NCBI GenBank assembly: GCA_024220505.1
Contig: JAKZZE010000010.1
Span: 1,736,001-1,800,000 of the forward strand
Origin: Rhizopus arrhizus
Lineage: Eukaryota; Mucoromycota; Mucoromycetes; Mucorales; Rhizopodaceae
Direction: 5' to 3'
DNA: 64,000 nt
Shown here: in pieces, positions 11,337-56,469 of the stretch
Layout of the letters: every line of letters begins with the position of its first letter
Numbering within the stretch: position 1 is the stretch's first letter
Program-made: the position numbers and the translations under genes
The notes under the pieces: generated by a model
Databases searched by the model: none
What the model was told of the DNA's origin: nothing
What the model saw: only the letters and a program-made list of their open reading frames with translations

Positions 11337-13693
11337 TTATTTATTATTTAAGAAATAAAAATTATTATAATCAAGCCGTGTGGATAACGACCGCAAGTCT
11401 TCGTCATGGTATGATTTCAACATGTCTAAAAATTGTAATACTTGCATGGTGAATGCACCTTCAATGTCTTCATGATCGCGTCTAATCTTATTTAGTGACT
11501 CGCCCTCTTCACTTGTGTTAGCATCGTCACTTTGTCTGGCTGCTTCTTGGCACGCGTGCTCATACAAGCGATCCAGCATGATTTTATATTGCAATATGCA
11601 ATCAAAAATCTCATTCAATCTCTCGGCGAGCATCTTCTCTTTGAGTCCGCTAAGGAAACCTTTTTCGGTGATTTCATTTAAATAGTTTGTATGCGATTCA
11701 ATGATAGAATCCAAATCAATGCAGCGATGTTCGATATCATTCTCTAGCTTCTCCCAAGAGCACTCCAACACTTCAAATAGCACATAATGCTGTAGTTGGT
11801 ATATAAAGTGAATCATTCTCTGTATCGTCATCTGCGCCTGATGAAGATCCTGCGACACATCTGGAAGCTGAGAAAATTCGCGACTGACTTTTCCCCACTG
11901 TCTCCATGAGGCTGACAGGGTATACTCCACCCGTTTGAGTCGCCAGAGAAAATTGAATACTTGAAGATAGCGTACCATTGCGCTCGGATTGATGACAGTA
12001 TTGATGGGGGCATCGACGTGGTAATCCAGCGTGAATACGTCCCATCCTAAATCATTCTTTTGGATCTCGAGTAATCGGACGTCCAGACGATTCAGAATCT
12101 CAGGCTCATCGTATTGAGCGTTGGAGGATCGAATGGTGGTCTCCAAGACACCGGTCAGATTATGACGAAATAGTGTAGTGGCAGGTTTGTCGAGCTTGAC
12201 TCTATTGAACTGTATAAGCAACGAGAGATCAACACAACCTCCCTTCTTAATTACCCTAATACATCCATCAAGTATTGAATAAAATCCCCTTGTCCAAGCA
12301 GTAAGTATCTTTTAAGAGCACGTAAATGATCCATCAGTTTATATTTAATCTTTAACAAGTCCAAGAGAGATTTGCTTGTGTCCAAATAGATGGTATCAAT
12401 AGCCCTTTCAACCGCCTGTATTTCACCATATTTGAATTTATCCCTTGTGTGGGTAGGTATGTCATATTGGTCCATACTGTCATGGCAGCTATAACGAATG
12501 AAATTCAGAGATTTGCCAATCGAAAAAATCTTTTGTGCCAACTCTTTGGAAAGAAATGAAGGTAGCATGTTTTCACGTATTGAATATTTGTGTTGCCAAA
12601 GGACTTCTTCAGATACTGCGAAATCACAAGCAACAAAGAATTCCTCATAAGGATCATCCAGTTCACCTTCATATACCCACCGCTGCAGCATATCATAAAA
12701 CGGCTTGGATACTACCTGCAGCATGTTTGTAATAAACCCTTTAATGAAGGGATCTCCATGCTTGGTATAATTATGCAAAGCGCTCACCAATCCCCCACCT
12801 TTTTGGCCTATGACATACAATAGGTACATGTTTACAAAGTCATGCAACTACACACATACCTTGACAAGCGTCTACAAGTATACTTATCAACTTCATCTTA
12901 CTGTTGGCATCTTCCATCCACACCAGCAGTCTTTTGAGTGTCAAACTCTGTTCATTCATGACCGGGTTCCGCTGAACAAGTTGCTTTTCAACTTGCGCCT
13001 CAATGATGGCAATCAATTTGTAGTAGGCCGTCAGCTCATCCTGAATAGCCGCACAAAGCGACTGACCGACCAATCCGATACTGCTCGAATCAATGTTTTC
13101 CTCTACAAATTTTCGAACGCGGCCATAGAGCCAACCGGTCTCTGTCAATCGATAGACGAGTTGCTCTGTTGGGTTTGATAGATGAAGAAACTGTTTATCA
13201 ATAAAGTATTCATCTGTAGATGGATCCGCCTTGATATATTGTCCGTTGATCCCTTGAAAGACAAAGACGAGATCACGTAATATATCCGATTCTGACACTA
13301 TATATTTTCTGTTAGTTGATGCCCAGCCTCTGCATTGCTCTATTTACCATTTCTTTTGTACGCTGCCTTCACTTTGGCAAGTTGTATCGCGGGTGGATCG
13401 GTCGTGTCGCTAAAATTGAAAGTTAGCCTTTTTCTTTGCATATCTTGAGAGATTGTTTACATGCATTTCATAATGTTTAAATGGTCGTAAATGGTCCATG
13501 TCTTGTTCAATATTAGGTAGTCCAGAGGTATGGATAGATATCGGACTTTGAGTACCCGACTATTAAAAGAAAGTTAGATTGCTCCCCTTTTCAGATAACA
13601 ATAAAAGAGAGCATTACAGTCTTTGTTGATTCTCTCTGCTGATTTTCTGGTGGTAAATTGTTTAATAATAGAATCAAGTAGAGAACAGACCAT
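11337..13693 (-). CDS. gamma-tubulin complex component 3 (Spc98/GCP3 family)
   Basis: Component of the gamma-tubulin ring complex that nucleates microtubules. The N-terminal GRIP1 region reads SESDILRDLVFVFQGINGQ, LVGQSLCAAIQDEL and LTLKRLLVWMEDANSKM. A second exon carries LVSALHNYTKHGDPFIKGF and RWVYEGELDDPYEEFFV. The GRIP2 part has RYLLLGQGDFIQYLMD, PATTLFRHNLTGVLETTI, LDYHVDAPINTV and FEVLECSWEKLE. These motifs match GCP3 rather than GCP2. Upstream exons near 13310-13690 are less certain. The plausible start MVCSLLDSIIKQF reaches the downstream frame RVLKVRYLSIPLDYL only if one base is missing near 13655, or if an unusual GTCTGT intron is used. Confidence 0.92.
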
Positions 13694-22287: not shown

Positions 22288-24252
22288 ATGTCAAAGAAAA
22301 TCTTGATTGGACCAGCAGAAGAAGATATTCGTGCTTTATTATCTCAATCAAGGGAGCCCTCAGAAGTGATAAAGACCATTCAAAAAGAATACGGCTTAGA
22401 TCTATTGGGTATTGAGCACATGTACCCACTTTTGGATTTTTGTGGTTATAGTCGCTTAGACATTCATAAAGCTTGTTTGAATGCCTTGAATGTAGAAACA
22501 GTCAAATATATTGAAAGCTCTTCATTTCAGCTTGAGCAGTAAGCAACTGACAATTGTTTCATTATAAAATGCTAATCATGAATAGATTCTATGATCTTTT
22601 TGATAAAACCTTTCCTTATATTCATATACCTTTGATGCAACCCATTCCGATGGCACTTTTAAAAAAATTTGAAAAACATGTGGGAGAAGACGTGATTGAA
22701 AAGTTAAAATCGGATATGAATGTGTTTGCCAACTGCCCTTTAAATATCAAACAACGCGTGTACAAACAAGACGAAGCTTTCTTTCAACAAAGCATGTTGC
22801 CTTTATTGAATAGTTATCATCACGATGAGACACTGCAAAAGTTGGCAATCAATTTAAAGCCAGATAGTTATCAGGAAGTTATTGAACAAAGGTACCTACA
22901 CTATACTGTGAGAATAAGAGGAGATTCTAATAGCTCATTAGGCGCACACATCCCATTGTATATAAATTTATGGAAGTCATCGGTGGGGATCCACAGATAT
23001 ATCTGATGTTTATGCAAATGGTTAGAATTGTATTTGAGACGACACCTTATCCTAGTTTGTGTTCTTTACGTATTGATGTTTTGATGAACTACCATGATTT
23101 AGGCTATGAAAAGGTAATGATGGTATATGTATTAAGAATAACTTTGTAACCCATTGAGGTAGACTCTTCAATTAGATAAATGCCACCAGTTGATCTGGTC
23201 CCTTGATACATGTGTACGCAACCAAAATATGGATGAATCAATTATTGTTAAAATCAAAGAGTGTTTTGATTTAGTAAAGAATGGTACACCACTTTATGCG
23301 TAAGAACACTGTCGATTTACAAAAGCCGTTTGAATAACATCATGTATAGTGACTTTGCTATGGTGCTTATGGATCCAATGATTTCCAACTTTTTAGCTTC
23401 GTGTATCGTAAAATGGTTAAGAAGCAGCGTTGATGATAACGCGCCTGATGATTTGGAGGAATTGATCAGTTACACAACCAAGTTATTAAATCTAGCGGAA
23501 CATGCACCCACTGCCGTTGCATTAAACACAAAAATACCAAAATTAGATAAAGAGATCAAGAATGTGCTATGGACTGTGTTGTGTGAGATTTTTGTGAATG
23601 AAGATGCGGATATGAAGATACAAATCAAGGAGTCAGACTTTAATGCTCTTCAAGGTATGCTTGTACGAAGCGACATTGCACGTAAAGTGTTTGTGCATTA
23701 TCTGATAGACCGTGTACAAGAACGCGATGTGGGTACGTTGCATCGATGCTTACCACTCATCATTCAGACCTGGCCATCACCCGACTTTGATGAAAGAGGG
23801 ATTGTTTATAGACAGACTTATATTAGTTTTATAAGAACCATGATTGAAATTGTCACGAAACGTAACTTGTATGAATTAATAGCAGACGTCAAATGGAGAC
23901 AAGTCATCATGGAAAACTTTTTATTAAAGGTGGTTGCGTGGGATGAAAAAATACATGAACAGTTGGTCTGGCTGTTGACAGATTATTTCACAGATCCAAA
24001 GTTGCTACTTAAACTTGGATCTCAATTTATTCTTATTTCAGAGTGGGCAGATGTCGTCGTTTCAAATGGCAAAGTGGACGAAAAGGTAAGCTTAGAAGCC
24101 GCGGTGATGATTTGCTAACATTATCACAGACCAGAAATCACCTTGTGGAAATGTACCTTCATCTTATTTCAAGAGCAAGAAATGTATTGAATGGTGAATT
24201 CACAATTAGTCCTCCAGCTGTTATTCGTTTCTGTACAAGTCATGTAGTTTAA
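22288..24252 (+). CDS. negative elongation factor B (NELF-B/COBRA1) homologue
   Basis: NELF-B is a helical scaffold of the NELF complex, which with DSIF holds RNA polymerase II in promoter-proximal pausing in animals. Six exons (22288-22538, 22586-22891, 22942-23113, 23163-23299, 23350-24085, 24130-24252) join in frame to 574 aa, close to the about 580 aa of the animal protein. Matching segments in order: LLDFCGYSRLDIHKACLNAL (animal LDLHGTPRLEFH), the run MPSLQPV-like IPLMQPIPMALLKKF, SLCSLRIDVLMNYHDLG, CHQLIWSLDTCVRN (animal CHKFTWCLDACIRE) and DFAMVLMDPMISNFLASCIV (animal DLSMILCDPFAINTLALSTV). Identity is modest but colinear over the whole length. Convergent with the RRF gene; the stops are 21 bp apart. 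Confidence 0.82.
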
Positions 24253-32095: not shown

Positions 32096-33591
32096 ATGTC
32101 AATAGCACTTCCTCCTGTTAAACTTATTTATTATACTCGTTGGTTTGGAGATACAAAATTTGGTAAATAAAAAAGAAACTATTGAAAACCATTTTATTAA
32201 GTTATTCAGATCATGACGATCATCGTGGAAGAGACTGTCCTATACCTAAAGAATATTCAATCGATATGAGCCAGGTACCTGAAGGAGCCAGTTGGTGTAC
32301 TTTAACGAGCTCAACAGAGAATTGGGAAGAAGCCAGTGGCTTGATCTTTCATGCGGCTGACATTTCTTATGCAGAGTTTCCACCTCGTAAAGCATAGATG
32401 AATGAAATAAATTGATCCTCTAAGCATCTTATCTATTAGCTGTGAATAATCAACCACGTATTTTGGAAACACTTGAGTCACCAATTACAGCACCCTTTCG
32501 AACCAATCCAGAACAAATGAAAAAATACGATTATTTAGCTTCTTATCATTTCAAATCCACTTTTTTATTTACTTATTTTTCACCTAGCATTATGGATGTC
32601 GCCAATCGCCCCTTACCGAAGGATTTCATAATGACCAAGCGAAAGGGTGCACCTATTTTATGGATCGCACGCAACTGTATGGCGACGAGTGGAAGACAGA
32701 AATACGTGGCTGAATTGATGAAGCACATTGAAGTTCACAGCTATGGTGACTGTAATAATAACATGCAGTTTCCTGATGATAAATCACGGTTAGAATTAAT
32801 GGCAGAATACAAATTTTATTTGGCGATTGAAAATGCGAATTGTGAAGATTATGGTACACACTTGAGCCCATAAAAGTGTAAATTTGTTTATTTAATTCAT
32901 TCTTATGGCTTTAGCTACTGAAAAGTTGTATGATACCTTCATGATGTCTGCTGTACCCATCGTAGACGGACCGTCCAGTTATCGCGGCTATCTTCCCACC
33001 AATCGATCTGTCATTTACATGGACGCCTATCCCGACCCAAAGGATCTGGCAGACTACATTGATTATTTAGACAAGAATGACACAGCTTACCTTGAATATC
33101 TCTCCTTTCGACGTGACGCTGTGAATCTGGCTGCCAAAGATCGATTGGAGCCAGCATTCATTGACCAGTGGGGGGACGCCCTGGAGCATAAAAAGAGGTC
33201 CGACTACTGTTCCATTTGTCGTGGTGTGTTGCCCTGGTGGCAAGCCCGACATGCATCCAACACGACCTATGAGGATAAATCAGAAAGGTTCTTGGCTGAT
33301 CAATCCTGTCAGCCTGCTGGTAAGTGGGATTATATCACCCACGGACGTCCTTATACACCCTCATGGAAGCCTCGTCCTCGAGATGAATTCACTCGACCTC
33401 AAGATGAATTCACTCAACCTCAACTCGGTCAACCTGTTGAAGAAGATCAAAAGCAAATCATTGAAACCATAGAAGGAAGTAATCGAAATATAGCCCTTTT
33501 GGCAAACGTCTTATTTCTTTGTTTTATTCTTGTGTTTGTAGTATTCTTACGTCGACCCAGAAAGAATAAACAGGAACATGTTTATGTTTAA
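32096..33591 (+). CDS. alpha-1,3-fucosyltransferase (GT10) with a C-terminal transmembrane segment
   Basis: Transfers fucose from GDP-fucose to glycans; fucose is a known constituent of Mucorales walls and glycoproteins. Four exons (32096-32162, 32210-32386, 32440-32853, 32915-33591) keep frame. The GT10 signature is clear across the third intron: YKFYLAIENANCEDY, then ATEKLYDTFMMSAVPIVDG. Upstream are RKGAPILWIARNC and IEVHSYGDC, the donor-binding fold. Downstream is SSYRGYLPTNRSVIYMDAYP. Unlike typical type II fucosyltransferases, no N-terminal anchor is seen. Instead the C-terminus carries ALLANVLFLCFILVFVVFL followed by RRPRKNK. A short Pro/Asp repeat (RDEFTRPQDEFTQPQ) precedes the anchor. 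An upstream exon cannot be excluded. Confidence 0.87.
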
Positions 33592-49416: not shown

Positions 49417-50819
49417 ATGAGAGAAGTTATTTCTATTCACGTCGGTCAAGCTGGTGTTCAAATTGGTAATGCCTGTTGGGAACTTTATTGTCTTGAACAT
49501 GGTATTCAACCTGATGGTCATATTCCCCAAGAACTTCAAGCTGGTGACAACTCCTTTGACACCTTCTTCAGTGAAACTAGCTCTGGTAAGCACGTTCCTC
49601 GTACTGTCATGGTCGATTTAGAACCTACCGTTGTTGATGAAGTTCGTACTGGTGCCTACCGTCAATTGTTCCATCCTGGTAAGTTTTGTAATTATTCCTT
49701 CTCATCTTCTCATCTAATCTCTTTTCATCAGAACAATTGATCACTGGTAAGGAAGATGCTGCCAACAACTATGCTCGTGGTCACTACACTGTTGGTAAGG
49801 AGCTCGTTGACTCCGTCTTGGACCGTATTCGTAAGTTAGCCGATAACTGTACCGGTCTTCAAGGTTTCTTGGTCTTCCACTCCTTTGGTGGTGGTACCGG
49901 TTCCGGTTTCGGTGCTCTTTTGATGGAACGTTTGTCTGTTGACTATGGTAAGAAGTCCAAGCTTGAGTTCTCTGTTTACCCCGCACCTCAGGTCTCCACC
50001 TCCGTTGTTGAACCCTACAACTCCATCTTGACCACCCATACCACTTTGGAACACTCTGATGTTTCTTTCATGGTCGATAACGAAGCCATTTACGATATCT
50101 GTCGTCGTAACTTGGACATTGAACGTCCTTCTTACCTCAACTTGAACCGTTTGATTGCCCAAGTTGTTTCTTCCATCACTGCCTCTCTTCGTTTTGATGG
50201 TTCCTTGAACGTTGACTTGAACGAATTCCAAACTAACTTGGTTCCCTATCCTCGTATTCACTTCCCCTTGGTCACTTACGCTCCCATCATCTCTGCCGCC
50301 AAGGCTTTCCACGAACAATTGTCTGTTCAAGAAATCACCAACGCCTGTTTTGAACCCAATAACCAAATGGTTAAGTGTGATCCTCGTCACGGCAAGTACA
50401 TGTCTTGTTGTCTTTTGTACCGTGGTGACGTTGTTCCCAAGGACACTAACGCTGCCATTGCCAACATCAAGACCAAGCGTACCATTCAATTTGTTGATTG
50501 GTGTCCTACCGGTTTCAAGGTTGGTATCAACTGTCGTAAGCCTGCTGCTGTTCCTGGTGGTGACTTGGCTGAGGTCCAACGTGCTCTCTGTATGTTGTCC
50601 AACACCACTGCTATTGCCGAAGCTTGGGCTCGTCTTGATCACAAGTTCGATTTGATGTACGCCAAGCGTGCTTTCGTCCACTGGTATGTCGGTGAAGGTA
50701 TGGAAGAAGGTGAATTCTCTGAAGCTCGTGAAGATTTGGCTGCTCTTGAAAAGGATTATGAAGAAGTTGGTTCTGACTCTTTGGGTGATTCTGAAATCGA
50801 AGACGCTGAAGAATACTAA
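49417..50819 (+). CDS. TUB1: alpha-tubulin
   Basis: Structural subunit of microtubules. Two exons (49417-49678, 49732-50819) give 449 aa. [20 protein letters not shown] starts the GTP-binding domain; the tubulin signature GGGTGSG is present, with the catalytic acidic loop [20 protein letters not shown]. The C-terminus is acidic and ends EDAEEY, with the terminal Tyr kept. The loop that carries Lys40 in animals reads [13 protein letters not shown] here, so no acetylatable Lys40 is present. Codon bias is very strong, as in 6PGDH. A 330-aa open frame opposite the gene is a by-product of this bias. Confidence 0.98.
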
Positions 50820-51569: not shown

Positions 51570-53215
51570 ATGCTTGCTGAACCCAATTCGATCAACAAAG
51601 AAACCGAAGCGCTTTCGATCACAAGCAGCCAAAGTTCCAAAACAAGTAAAAGCTCTAAAACAAGCAAAAGCTCCAGGACTAGTAAAAGTTCTAAAACAAG
51701 CAAGAGCTCAAGAACAAGTAGAAGCTCTTGGTCAAAAATACCAAATTATCCAATGCCAACCTACAATAATGAAGGTTTATGATTTTGAGGGGAAAGAAAC
51801 ATTCCACTGTATTTTTTTTTAACTTGAATCGATGAAAATTGTATAGAATTACCACCTCTGCCTACAAAAGAACCATCCACAAAATTAACTTATGCGTCTA
51901 AAAGAGCAAGTCTAGTTTCTCCACCTTCAAATCTGACGGATTACAGGTAAGAGATGAAAAAGTATACTGAACATATCTTACGTAAAAAATGCAACAACCA
52001 ATCATACTTAAATAAAGCTCAAGTCATGTGAAGTCCAAAGTAGGTTCTTTAGACAACATCAAGCACACGCCAGGTGGTGGGAACACAAAGATATTTGATG
52101 AAGGTGTCCATGTCTTGAAAGAAAAAGTTGTTTCAAAAGCAGCACCCAAAGTTGGCTCGCTTGATAACATCAAGCACAAGCCGGGTGGTGGTGAAACAAA
52201 AGTGTTTGATGAGGGTGTCTATGCGCTAAAGGAAAAGATTACCTTGAAAGCAGCTTCAAAGGTTGGCTCACTCGATAATATTAAACATAAACCAGGGGGT
52301 GGCGAGGCAAAGGTGTTTGATGAAGGCATCCATGTGTTGAAAGAAAAAATCAGTTCAAAGGCAACGTCCAAAATTGGATCTCTAGACAATATCAAACATA
52401 AACCAGGCGGAGGCACAACAAGGGTATTTGATGAAGGCATTCATGTCCTAAAGGAGAAGATTGCCTTAAAGGCTACATCAAAAGTTGGTTCGCTCGACAA
52501 CATAAAGCATAAGCCAGGTGGAGGCAAAACAAAAGTATTTGACGAAGGTGTCTATGTACTAAAGGAAAAGATTGCTGCCAAAACATCCTCCAAGGTCGGC
52601 TCCCTAGACAATATCAAGCATAAACCAGGTGGTGGTGAGGCAAAAGTGTTTGATGAAGGGGTACATGTCTTGAAAGAAAAGATCACGTCGAAAGCGGCAT
52701 CCAAAGTCGGCTCGCTGGATAACATAAAGCATAAACCAGGAGGAGGCACTACAAAGGTGTTTGATGAAGGTATTCATACATTGAAAGAAAAGATTGTTTC
52801 AAAGGCTACGTCAAAAGTAGGCTCTTTAGACAACATCAAGCATAAGCCAGGTGGCGGTGAGACAAAAGTATTTGATGAAGGAGTTAATGTCTTAAAAGAA
52901 AAGGTTGTTTCCAAAGCGACATCGAAGATCGGCTCACTCGATAACATAAAGCATAAGCCTGGCGGAGGTACAAAGAAAGTGTTTGATGAGGGTGTCTATG
53001 CGCTGAAGGAAAAAATCGTCGCAAAGGCCACGTCAAAGATCGGTTCTTTGGATAATATCAATCACAAATTGGGAGGTGAAAACATCAGAGTATATAATGG
53101 TAAGGATGCAAAACCCAAGATGATTACAAGTAAGATAGGAAACAATCATAAAAAGCACGCTGGTGACACTAAAGAAATTGTTACAAAGGGCAAATTGTTA
53201 AATGAAAGATTGTGA
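51570..53215 (+). CDS. tau/MAP2-like microtubule-binding repeat protein
   Basis: Three exons (51570-51774, 51847-51946, 52018-53215) join exactly in frame to 500 aa. The N-terminus is a Ser/Lys/Thr tract of repeated SSKTSK/SSRTSK units (51625-51735), then a Pro-containing region with LTYASKRASLVSPPSNLTD. Nine tandem 37-residue repeats follow, each of the form KVGSLDNIKHKPGGG, then ETKVFDEGVYALKEK and a Lys/Ala/Ser spacer. KxGSxxNIxHxPGGG is the core of the animal tau/MAP2/MAP4 microtubule-binding repeat. A tenth unit (KIGSLDNINHKLGGEN) and an eleventh are degenerate. The protein is strongly basic, with no membrane or catalytic domain. Microtubule binding is inferred from the motif. It follows alpha-tubulin on the same strand. 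Confidence 0.9.
52037..53035 (+). repeat. nine tandem 111-bp coding repeats (37-aa tau-like units)
   Basis: Unit starts are at 52037, 52148, 52259, 52370, 52481, 52592, 52703, 52814 and 52925, with no indels between units. The DNA differs at many third positions (for example aaagttggctcg versus aaggttggctca), while the protein core is nearly invariant. Degenerate units continue from 53036 to the stop. Confidence 0.95.
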
Positions 53216-54376: not shown

Positions 54377-56469
54377 ATGGCATTTAATGTATCGGTTCCC
54401 GATTTAATACTTAAGGAAGGCATATTCATACAACCTTTAACACCTATCGGGAATAGTTTAATTGCATCTTTTTTTGTGGGAATCATCCCTTTAGTACTTG
54501 TTCTTGTTTTATTAGGAGTTTTCCGTGTTCCAGCTTATTATGCTTCATTTGCTGGTCTAGTTTTATGGTATAAAAAACTTTAATGACATTTATAAATGCT
54601 CATGTTAATTTAGTATCATCATATCTATCTTTGGCTGGCACATACCTGCTCAACAAGCATTTGAAGCTGTTGGTAACGGTATTGTTTATGCAAATTGGCC
54701 AATCATGTGGCTTGTATTTAATGCCATGTAAGCTAACAAAAGATATAGACAACAAGTGTTGCTTACTTTCTTCTCATTAGGCTAGTCTACAATATTTCAG
54801 TCAGGTCTAAAACATTTGATCTGTTTCGAAGGTGGATGTTGATCCATACGCCGCCTGATAAAAGAGTGCTTTTACTCATCATTGGCTTTGCTTTTGGTGC
54901 TTTATTAGAAGGTAGGAAAGGAAAATAGACCAGTGAATTGCACCTGCTAATACACTCCTTCTTTTCTTTCTGAAGGTGTAGCTGGGTTTGGTGTGCCTGG
55001 TGCCATTTGTTCCTCTATGCTGGTATCATTAGGGTAGAGAAATAATACAATTAAAATAGAGCAAAACTGACATAAAATTTGGTTTGATAGATTTGAACCT
55101 TCTGATGCCCTTGTTTATACACTCATATTTAATACCACGCCTGTAGCCTTTGGTGCCCTTGGAACACCCGTTACAACTCTTGCCTCACTCACCGGCCTTC
55201 CAGCTCTTTCATTATCTTCCATGATGGGCAGACAGTTACCTTTCCTTAGCCTTTTTTTACCGGCCTATGCCCTCTTATTCTATGCTGGTCCAAGAGCAGG
55301 TCTGATCGAATGCTGGCCACCAGCACTTGTTGCCGGTTTTTCTTTTGCAATTACGCAAGCCATATTTGCGAACCTTGTAGGACCTGAATTACCTGATCTG
55401 ATGGCCGGATTAGTCTCATTGTTGTGCATTATCCTTTTCGTTCAATATTGGAAGCCTCCGTATAGGGTTGAATATGAAGCAAATATGAATTTTCATTTTG
55501 CAAACGGGAAAAAATCAGATGTTGAGTCTGTAATTTCTGAAAGGCAAGACATCCTGAGTTTTAAGGAAGCTGCTTTAGCCTGGTGTCCTTGGATTATCAT
55601 TATTATCGTAGTTATCATGTATGCCCATAGCGCAATAAAAAAAATTGAAGTAGCTTACATTATATCCATTAGCTGGACCTTTGTAAAAGTTTCCACGATA
55701 GGTGCTGTTCATATAAACTGGCCTCATCTTCACCAAGAGGTACACAGAAAAGGACCCATGATGGTTGTTTAATAATATGACATTAATTTATTAATGACAG
55801 GTATGGCTGACATTGTATAGTAGAAAGTATGATGCCGTTTGGGTGTTTCAACCATTAGCCACAGGAACGGCTATTTTCGTATCATGCATTACTTATTCTA
55901 TCATTATATGGCTTCATGGAGTTCATCCACATGAACTTTTAGCTGCACTAAAAGATACTGCGTTGCAACTTTATAAACCAACTATCACAGTCAGTTTTAT
56001 TATGGCTTTTGCTTACCTTTTCAACTATTCTGGTAAAGGGCAAACAAAAAAAAATTTATAGCTTATAATTTTTCTTTTAAAAGGTATTGTCTATACTATT
56101 GGATATCAGCTTTCTTCAGTAGGTCGAGCATTCCCTTTTTTATCTGCTTGGCTAGGCTGGGTTGCCTGCTTTTTATCAGGAAGTGATACATCAGCCAACT
56201 CCTTGTTTGGTAACCTTCAAGTGGTCACCGCAAGAGAAATTGGATTATCAGCTGTGCTCATGGCTGCTACCAACTCAAGCGGTGCTATCACGTCTAAAAT
56301 GATCTCACCCCAAAACTTAATTACAGGTGTTTCTACTATTGGTTTAGAGGGTAAAGAAGGCATTATTTTAAGACGAACTGTGCTTCACTCTTTATTGATG
56401 TGTACTACAGTGGGCGTTATGGCGTGCATACAGCAATACCTTATACCTGGTATCATACCTTCCGAATAA
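54377..56469 (+). CDS. L-lactate permease family transporter (LldP/LctP, TC 2.A.14)
   Basis: LldP carriers import lactate or glycolate with protons and are mainly bacterial. Many membrane helices are visible, starting LIASFFVGIIPLVLVLVLLG. The family core follows: ALLEGVAGFGVPGAICSSML, then PSDALVYTLIFNTTPVAFGA with LGTPVTTLASLTGLP. A second conserved block reads WLGWVACFLSGSDTSANSLF, then GNLQVVTAREIGLSAVLMAA and KMISPQNLITGVSTIGLEGK. About seven short introns of the local type interrupt it, so it is a resident gene and not contamination. It ends at a stop after PGIIPSE; a further helical frame to about 56600 is not in phase. Confidence 0.9.

Follow-up and report, generated by a model that had tools for sequence, protein, structure and literature searches.

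The window analysed here, a stretch of 64,000 nucleotides from Rhizopus arrhizus, contains a gene for a protein that its sequence places securely in the tau/MAP2/MAP4 superfamily, with nine near-identical tau-type repeats of 37 amino acids in tandem. Taking all evidence together, we consider it very probable that this protein is a disordered superfamily member that would bind along microtubule protofilaments and might be regulated by MARK/Kin1-type kinases, that its gene was inherited from the animal-fungal common ancestor, and that its array arose from copies of the first repeat.

Membership in the superfamily was assessed by profile, structure and motif. A search of the exon-3 protein against Pfam PF00418, as proposed in the earlier sequence-only reading of this DNA, gave a highly significant match (E 9.8e-108, 352 bits against a cut-off of 27) in ten stretches. 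Among solved structures, the nearest hits carry the name tau (E 4.5e-25) and align across several repeats in a row. Nine intact tandem repeats and one decayed repeat carry the core [KR]xGSxxNIxHxPGGG, at least three of which we took to define the superfamily, bearing out the claim of tau/MAP2-type repeats in a fungus. The 37-residue spacing fits the superfamily range, neighbouring cores in other members being at least 29 residues apart; a unit spacing of 31–32 residues is usual in vertebrates, not obligatory for membership. None of the Ase1/MAP65, EB1 or XMAP215 Pfam domains occurs among the 11 families matching exon 3 up to E 1. The ten other families in that set match far more weakly, and we set them aside as sums of small scores from a repetitive sequence; PF12488, PF13438 and PF24738 slightly exceed their whole-protein cut-off, with no individual stretch passing.

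The array itself consists of nine units of exactly 37 residues (52037–53035, plus strand, 111 bp each, the period also returned by Tandem Repeats Finder), with the core KVGSLDNIKHKPGGG and starts at residues 109, 146, 183, 220, 257, 294, 331, 368 and 405. It is followed by a decayed tenth repeat, KIGSLDNINHKLGGE... (residues 442–473; 53036–53131, plus strand), recognised in the translation with a core score of 41.2, and by a stretch that, judged by eye, is the remnant of an eleventh, KIGNNHKKHAGDTK (residues 474–487; 53132–53173, plus strand), occupying the position of the R' pseudo-repeat of relatives. The initial description of nine tandem 37-residue units plus two degenerate ones was therefore correct. 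Scored with a 16-residue core profile, the ten cores reach 41–58, compared to 19.0 for the best of 500 shuffles of the same protein, and K[VI]GS is retained in all ten. Among the 36 pairs formed by the nine units, pS is 0.78 and pN 0.10; synonymous sites are near saturation, with pS of at least 0.74 in 23 pairs, and pN falls from 0.153 in the linker to 0.024 in the almost invariant core. Near-saturated pS together with low pN, lowest in the core, indicates that the units are old copies kept alike by selection at the protein level.

The gene (51570–53215, plus strand) is predicted to comprise three exons that join in frame to encode 500 amino acids, the splice joins being predictions from GT..AG borders and the open frame. 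Predicted exon 1 (51570–51774, plus strand), placed by its frame and GT border, holds the start codon and a Ser/Lys-rich basic segment. Predicted exon 2 (51847–51946, plus strand) is supported by the motif YASKRASLVSPP, a similar form of which directly precedes the first repeat in four of the six proteins from other Mucorales. Predicted exon 3 (52018–53215, plus strand), to which the PF00418 match belongs, contains the repeat array, the C-terminus and the stop codon, and its frame is open across 399 codons. The N-terminal 108 residues are short and basic (net charge +10), and there are two SP/TP sites in the entire protein; on these grounds the proline-rich flank is weak compared to that of animal tau. 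Within exon 1, an 18/36-bp tandem repeat (51627–51728, plus strand) encodes a basic SSKTSK run, which may possibly stand in for tau's basic flank. The vertebrate MAPT, MAP2 and MAP4 subfamilies are characterised by an acidic projection domain, a proline-rich region and R'; given the short basic N-terminus and decayed R', we do not place the protein in any of them.

To find relatives, three protein searches were performed, which together list 290 different proteins (the best 120 each of 4511, 4934 and 861 hits). Among the matches listed are at least 26 named fungal proteins: six from Mucorales (Helicostylum, Pilobolus, Syncephalastrum, Benjaminiella, Cokeromyces and Mycotypha), ten from Glomeromycota (Gigaspora, Racocetra, Cetraspora, three Funneliformis, Rhizophagus, two Paraglomus and Acaulospora) and ten from chytrids (two Geranomyces, Powellomyces, Phlyctochytrium, Thoreauomyces, Spizellomyces and four Rhizophlyctis proteins). 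Group placement was checked in the taxonomy for seven genera; the remaining fungal genera we take to belong to Mucorales, Glomeromycota or chytrids as given. The other names noticed among the listed matches are those of animals, many entries being nameless, and no Dikarya name was noticed among the 290 proteins (the best 120 of 861 to 4934 hits each, many of them nameless). Nearest among the matches listed is the Helicostylum protein, with 50% identity over 61% of the query, which points to a source within the Mucorales.

Contrary to what the sequence-only reading had supposed, tau-type proteins are thus not new to fungi: at least 26 named ones are listed, one Gigaspora margarita database entry is named tau-like, several other fungal entries are called 'Microtubule-associated protein', and Sundermann et al. 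2016 (PMC4815063) include the fungus Rhizopus delemar in their MAPT/MAP2/MAP4 tree and call its architecture distinct. Going by that description, the Rhizopus delemar protein is likewise a fungal superfamily member. This was the only relevant fungal mention found in the open-licence literature searched. The main text of a 2023 survey devoted to fungal gene families (PMC10406608) nowhere uses the word 'microtubule', and the passages found contain no tau protein. Functional work on a fungal tau-type protein did not turn up in a search of the open-licence literature, which most subscription journals lie outside.

Fungal relatives mostly have 4–8 units (25 of the 26 named proteins and one unnamed). 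Core counts over 291 proteins, including our own, gave 10 for the window protein, 11 for P0007, 10 each for P0036 and P0079 (all three unnamed database proteins), 9 for the clam Mercenaria and 8 for two fish proteins. The expectation of more repeats than in animal tau hence stands against the four land-vertebrate proteins compared, which have 4–5 units each, and falls against the family at large; a record repeat number, which we had considered, was rejected on the same counts. As a separate observation, two gene sets of Rhizophlyctis rosea (HDV00 and HK097) each seem to contain tau-type proteins of two kinds, namely a short four-repeat form with R' and an animal-like layout and a split-block chytrid form (P0238 and P0262 compared against P0209 and P0211).

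The arrangement of the units differs between groups. Spacing is 37 residues in the window protein, mostly 31 in Glomeromycota and mostly 30–32 in animals, while most chytrid proteins have 30–35 residues within blocks and a long spacer between two blocks; Glomeromycota and chytrid proteins have the repeat family in common with ours and differ, for the most part, in their 31-residue spacing or split blocks, respectively. In five of the six other Mucorales, the first unit measures 37 or 38 residues and later units 34–36, with 37-residue spacing present once each in four of these proteins and 38 in that of Cokeromyces. The other Mucorales proteins resemble ours in their KxGSLxNIKHKPGGG cores, in the 37-residue first unit (four of six) and in the motif preceding the repeats (four of six); they differ in having 4–8 units and, in four of them, a clear R', whereas the units of the window protein are all of the first-repeat type.

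Comparison of linkers bears this out. The window linkers score on average 44.1 against the first-repeat linkers of five Mucorales and 17.0 against the 15 internal linkers of the same proteins (Syncephalastrum was left aside because its layout differs), and all nine prefer the first-repeat type; against 23 linkers of four Glomeromycota, the mean is 2.5. These alignments are most simply read as an array that arose by copying of the first repeat, with the internal repeat types lost.

Compared to vertebrate tau, MAP2 and MAP4, the window protein has in common the tandem KxGSxxNIxHxPGGG repeats, a basic flank and the KxGS phosphorylation motif. Vertebrate units are mostly 31–32 residues long, with 4–5 in four proteins and eight in two fishes, whereas ours are nine near-identical units of 37; the window protein also has no acidic projection domain, a weak proline-rich region and a decayed R'. 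The hexapeptides VQIINK and VQIVYK, which drive filament formation in tau, are replaced at their places by residues of the TKVFDEG type.

Evidence on descent comes partly from the terminal pseudo-repeat. After their last repeat, four Mucorales proteins, Paraglomus and two Rhizophlyctis proteins carry a segment of the form KLxFxExAxPRIDxG. Segments of this type also occur in echinoderms, rat MAP2 (a name we gave from that protein's tail) and tau, and other Glomeromycota show a looser version; the vertebrate version, R' (KLxFRExAKAKxDHG), likewise follows the last repeat. We built an R' model from 14 of the 26 named fungal proteins, picked for showing the motif or its looser form, so that the comparison is partly circular. 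Among 22 proteins taken as animal (11 named and 11 unnamed ones judged animal by sequence), this model gave the last segment the top score in 10: all six deuterostomes, 4 of the 16 others and none of the three named insects. For two of three vertebrate tau proteins, the last segment beat an internal one by just 1 bit, and the scan dropped segments too near the protein end, so that the true last units of Mercenaria and P0007 went unscored. With these limits, the comparison partly supports common descent. A likeness between the tails of Glomeromycota and vertebrate proteins (SP..LALDE and SPQLATLADE) stood out by eye, but we do not claim homology of the whole tail, because MAFFT put the two stretches out of register.

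In a tree of the last two repeats and the terminal segment (25 rows, 74 columns), the Glomeromycota group together, as do four of five Mucorales and the rows of vertebrates, echinoderms and insects, leaving the deep order unsettled; the window row sits on a long branch in an unsure position. Fungi do not form one clade in the best tree, and a single fungal clade is not rejected (p-AU 0.214). Horizontal transfer from an animal, once or several times, could in principle produce such a picture, given the open deep order, the splitting of the fungi and the confinement of names in the listed matches to animals and three early-branching fungal groups. We regard transfer as unlikely, since members occur in Mucorales, Glomeromycota and chytrids, each with its own unit spacing, so that several events or one very early event would be needed, since a single fungal clade is compatible with the data, and since the GC3 of the gene (0.381) lies within the range of eight other coding stretches in the window (0.301–0.487).

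An ancestral gene is the simplest explanation for the presence of the family in three fungal groups and in animals, which suggests, from the sequences compared, that tau-type proteins are older than nerve cells. Among the origins offered in the sequence-only reading, deep ancestry consequently fits best, transfer ranks as a possible second and convergence is very unlikely. Some features sit less well with our overall reading: the 37-residue period exceeds the commonest spacing of animals, R' is decayed in the window protein, the proline-rich flank is weak, the place of the window row in the tree is unsure, and the R' comparison does not hold for the three insects tested. We give about even odds to the fuller scenario in which chytrids, Glomeromycota and Mucorales retained a lattice-binding tau-type protein of the animal-fungal ancestor, the yeasts and moulds most used for work on fungal microtubules perhaps lost it, and this lineage rebuilt its array from the first repeat to nine sites that could hold nine successive tubulin dimers.

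How the protein might work can be proposed from its likeness to tau; we infer that it binds and stabilises microtubules and that this binding is regulated. It would be disordered in solution, and each 37-residue unit would stretch along the outer ridge of a protofilament, one per tubulin dimer. The K[VI]GSLDNIKHKPGGG core would touch tubulin, bringing the serine of KxGS close to Glu434 of alpha-tubulin, and the linker, which varies more, would bridge to the next dimer. With a dimer length of 8 nm, nine serial units could span up to nine consecutive dimers, about 72 nm, and such multivalent binding to the lattice would promote assembly and stabilise the polymer. MARK/Kin1-type kinases could weaken binding through the ten KxGS serines, a possible off switch. 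For tau, two studies (PMC13224075, PMC7604284) describe one repeat per tubulin heterodimer along the protofilament, contact of Ser262 of KIGS with Glu434 of alpha-tubulin, and lowered affinity upon phosphorylation of Ser262 by MARK.

Candidates for the corresponding partners are present in the genome. An alpha-tubulin gene, of which two coding pieces were found (49417–50819, plus strand; PF00091 and PF03953, with alpha-tubulin as best solved match), ends with its stop codon 750 bp upstream of the tau-type start codon on the same strand. Its LEKDYEEVG segment matches the best solved chain exactly, the second E there counting as residue 434, and LEKDYEEVG with Glu434 is retained in all four alpha loci read (of five), this neighbour among them. 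The five beta loci keep a conventional C-terminal end, and one of them was aligned with solved beta-tubulin over exon residues 5–385. Seven loci encode a KA1 domain, the best being nearest to solved MARK1 and MARK4; in that best exon KA1 alone matched, with no Pfam match to a kinase domain. Across the genome, the tubulin loci (L016–L026) comprise five of alpha type, five of beta type and one divergent locus whose match runs through stops, perhaps a gamma-tubulin read across an intron.

We also modelled the exon-3 protein with 18 relatives using AlphaFold. The model has a mean pLDDT of 42.4, a pTM of 0.14 and no residue at or above 70, and contains no ordered fold, just short low-confidence helices. 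This outcome is consistent with disorder, as in tau; low confidence is not proof of disorder, and as it can also result from bad modelling, the output does not demonstrate binding.

A protein that kept its repeats while leaving microtubules for another acidic partner might likewise show uniform 37-residue units, a decayed R' and a weak proline-rich flank. The pattern of constraint argues against such a switch, the tubulin-contacting core being the most conserved part of the unit and the tubulin residue it would meet being kept, and we judge it improbable, slightly more so than transfer. Convergence, in which a low-complexity repeat drifted into the motif, would suit a repetitive and internally uniform array, but is highly implausible in view of the strength of the PF00418 match, an alignment that runs over consecutive tau repeats, a core of many residues common to animals and a terminal pseudo-repeat common to deuterostomes.

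Contamination or an unexpressed pseudogene is as implausible as convergence; the exon joins are predicted only, but the locus lies about 1.79 Mb inside its contig, in a genome of 50.26 Mb in 41 contigs, kin occur in other Mucorales, the long frame of exon 3 is open, and pN among units is far below pS. The sequence-only reading had named absence of the gene from related genomes as a sign of contamination; this did not hold, since other fungi have relatives. All 10 of 10 candidate PF00418 matches in the genome fall here, and genome searches with the Helicostylum and Gigaspora proteins matched this locus only. A single locus deep in a large contig, ordinary eukaryotic neighbours and relatives in other fungi make contamination very unlikely, and the gene is native and under selection.

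Several further genes were noted in the window. A NUDIX gene comes after the tau-type gene, and a gamma-tubulin complex component lies at 11337–12311 (minus strand; PF04130, E 1.1e-79), so that three microtubule genes, with alpha-tubulin and the tau-type gene, occur within 42 kb. Exons of an L-lactate permease (55071–56061, plus strand; PF02652) belong to a mainly bacterial family, and the gene is possibly an old transfer into the fungus. A weak match to COBRA1/NELF-B (23270–24118, plus strand; PF06209, E 9.3e-06), which is not known from yeasts, is perhaps a further animal-like gene retained in an early-branching fungus. The window also contains a glycosyltransferase family 10 (fucosyltransferase) exon (32896–33591, plus strand; PF00852, E 1.3e-14).

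Within its known superfamily the protein is structurally unusual, and the superfamily itself has gone almost unnoticed in this lineage. Because the family is already present in fungal database entries and has been named once in print, for Rhizopus delemar, our claim is a moderate one, surprising to most tau and fungal cell biologists, yet with precedent. Tau has been studied almost solely in animals, mostly in neurons, and fungal microtubules mostly in yeasts and moulds. If the ancestral reading is true, the binding logic of tau, and perhaps its MARK-type switch, would be older than neurons. Early-branching fungi that have a tau-type gene and lack nerves would make it possible to test directly what the family first did. 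Fungal tau-type genes may also serve to test how repeat number and spacing set microtubule binding, and an array of nine 37-residue units with a near-invariant core and other residues in place of the hexapeptides would offer a comparison that separates microtubule binding from filament formation.
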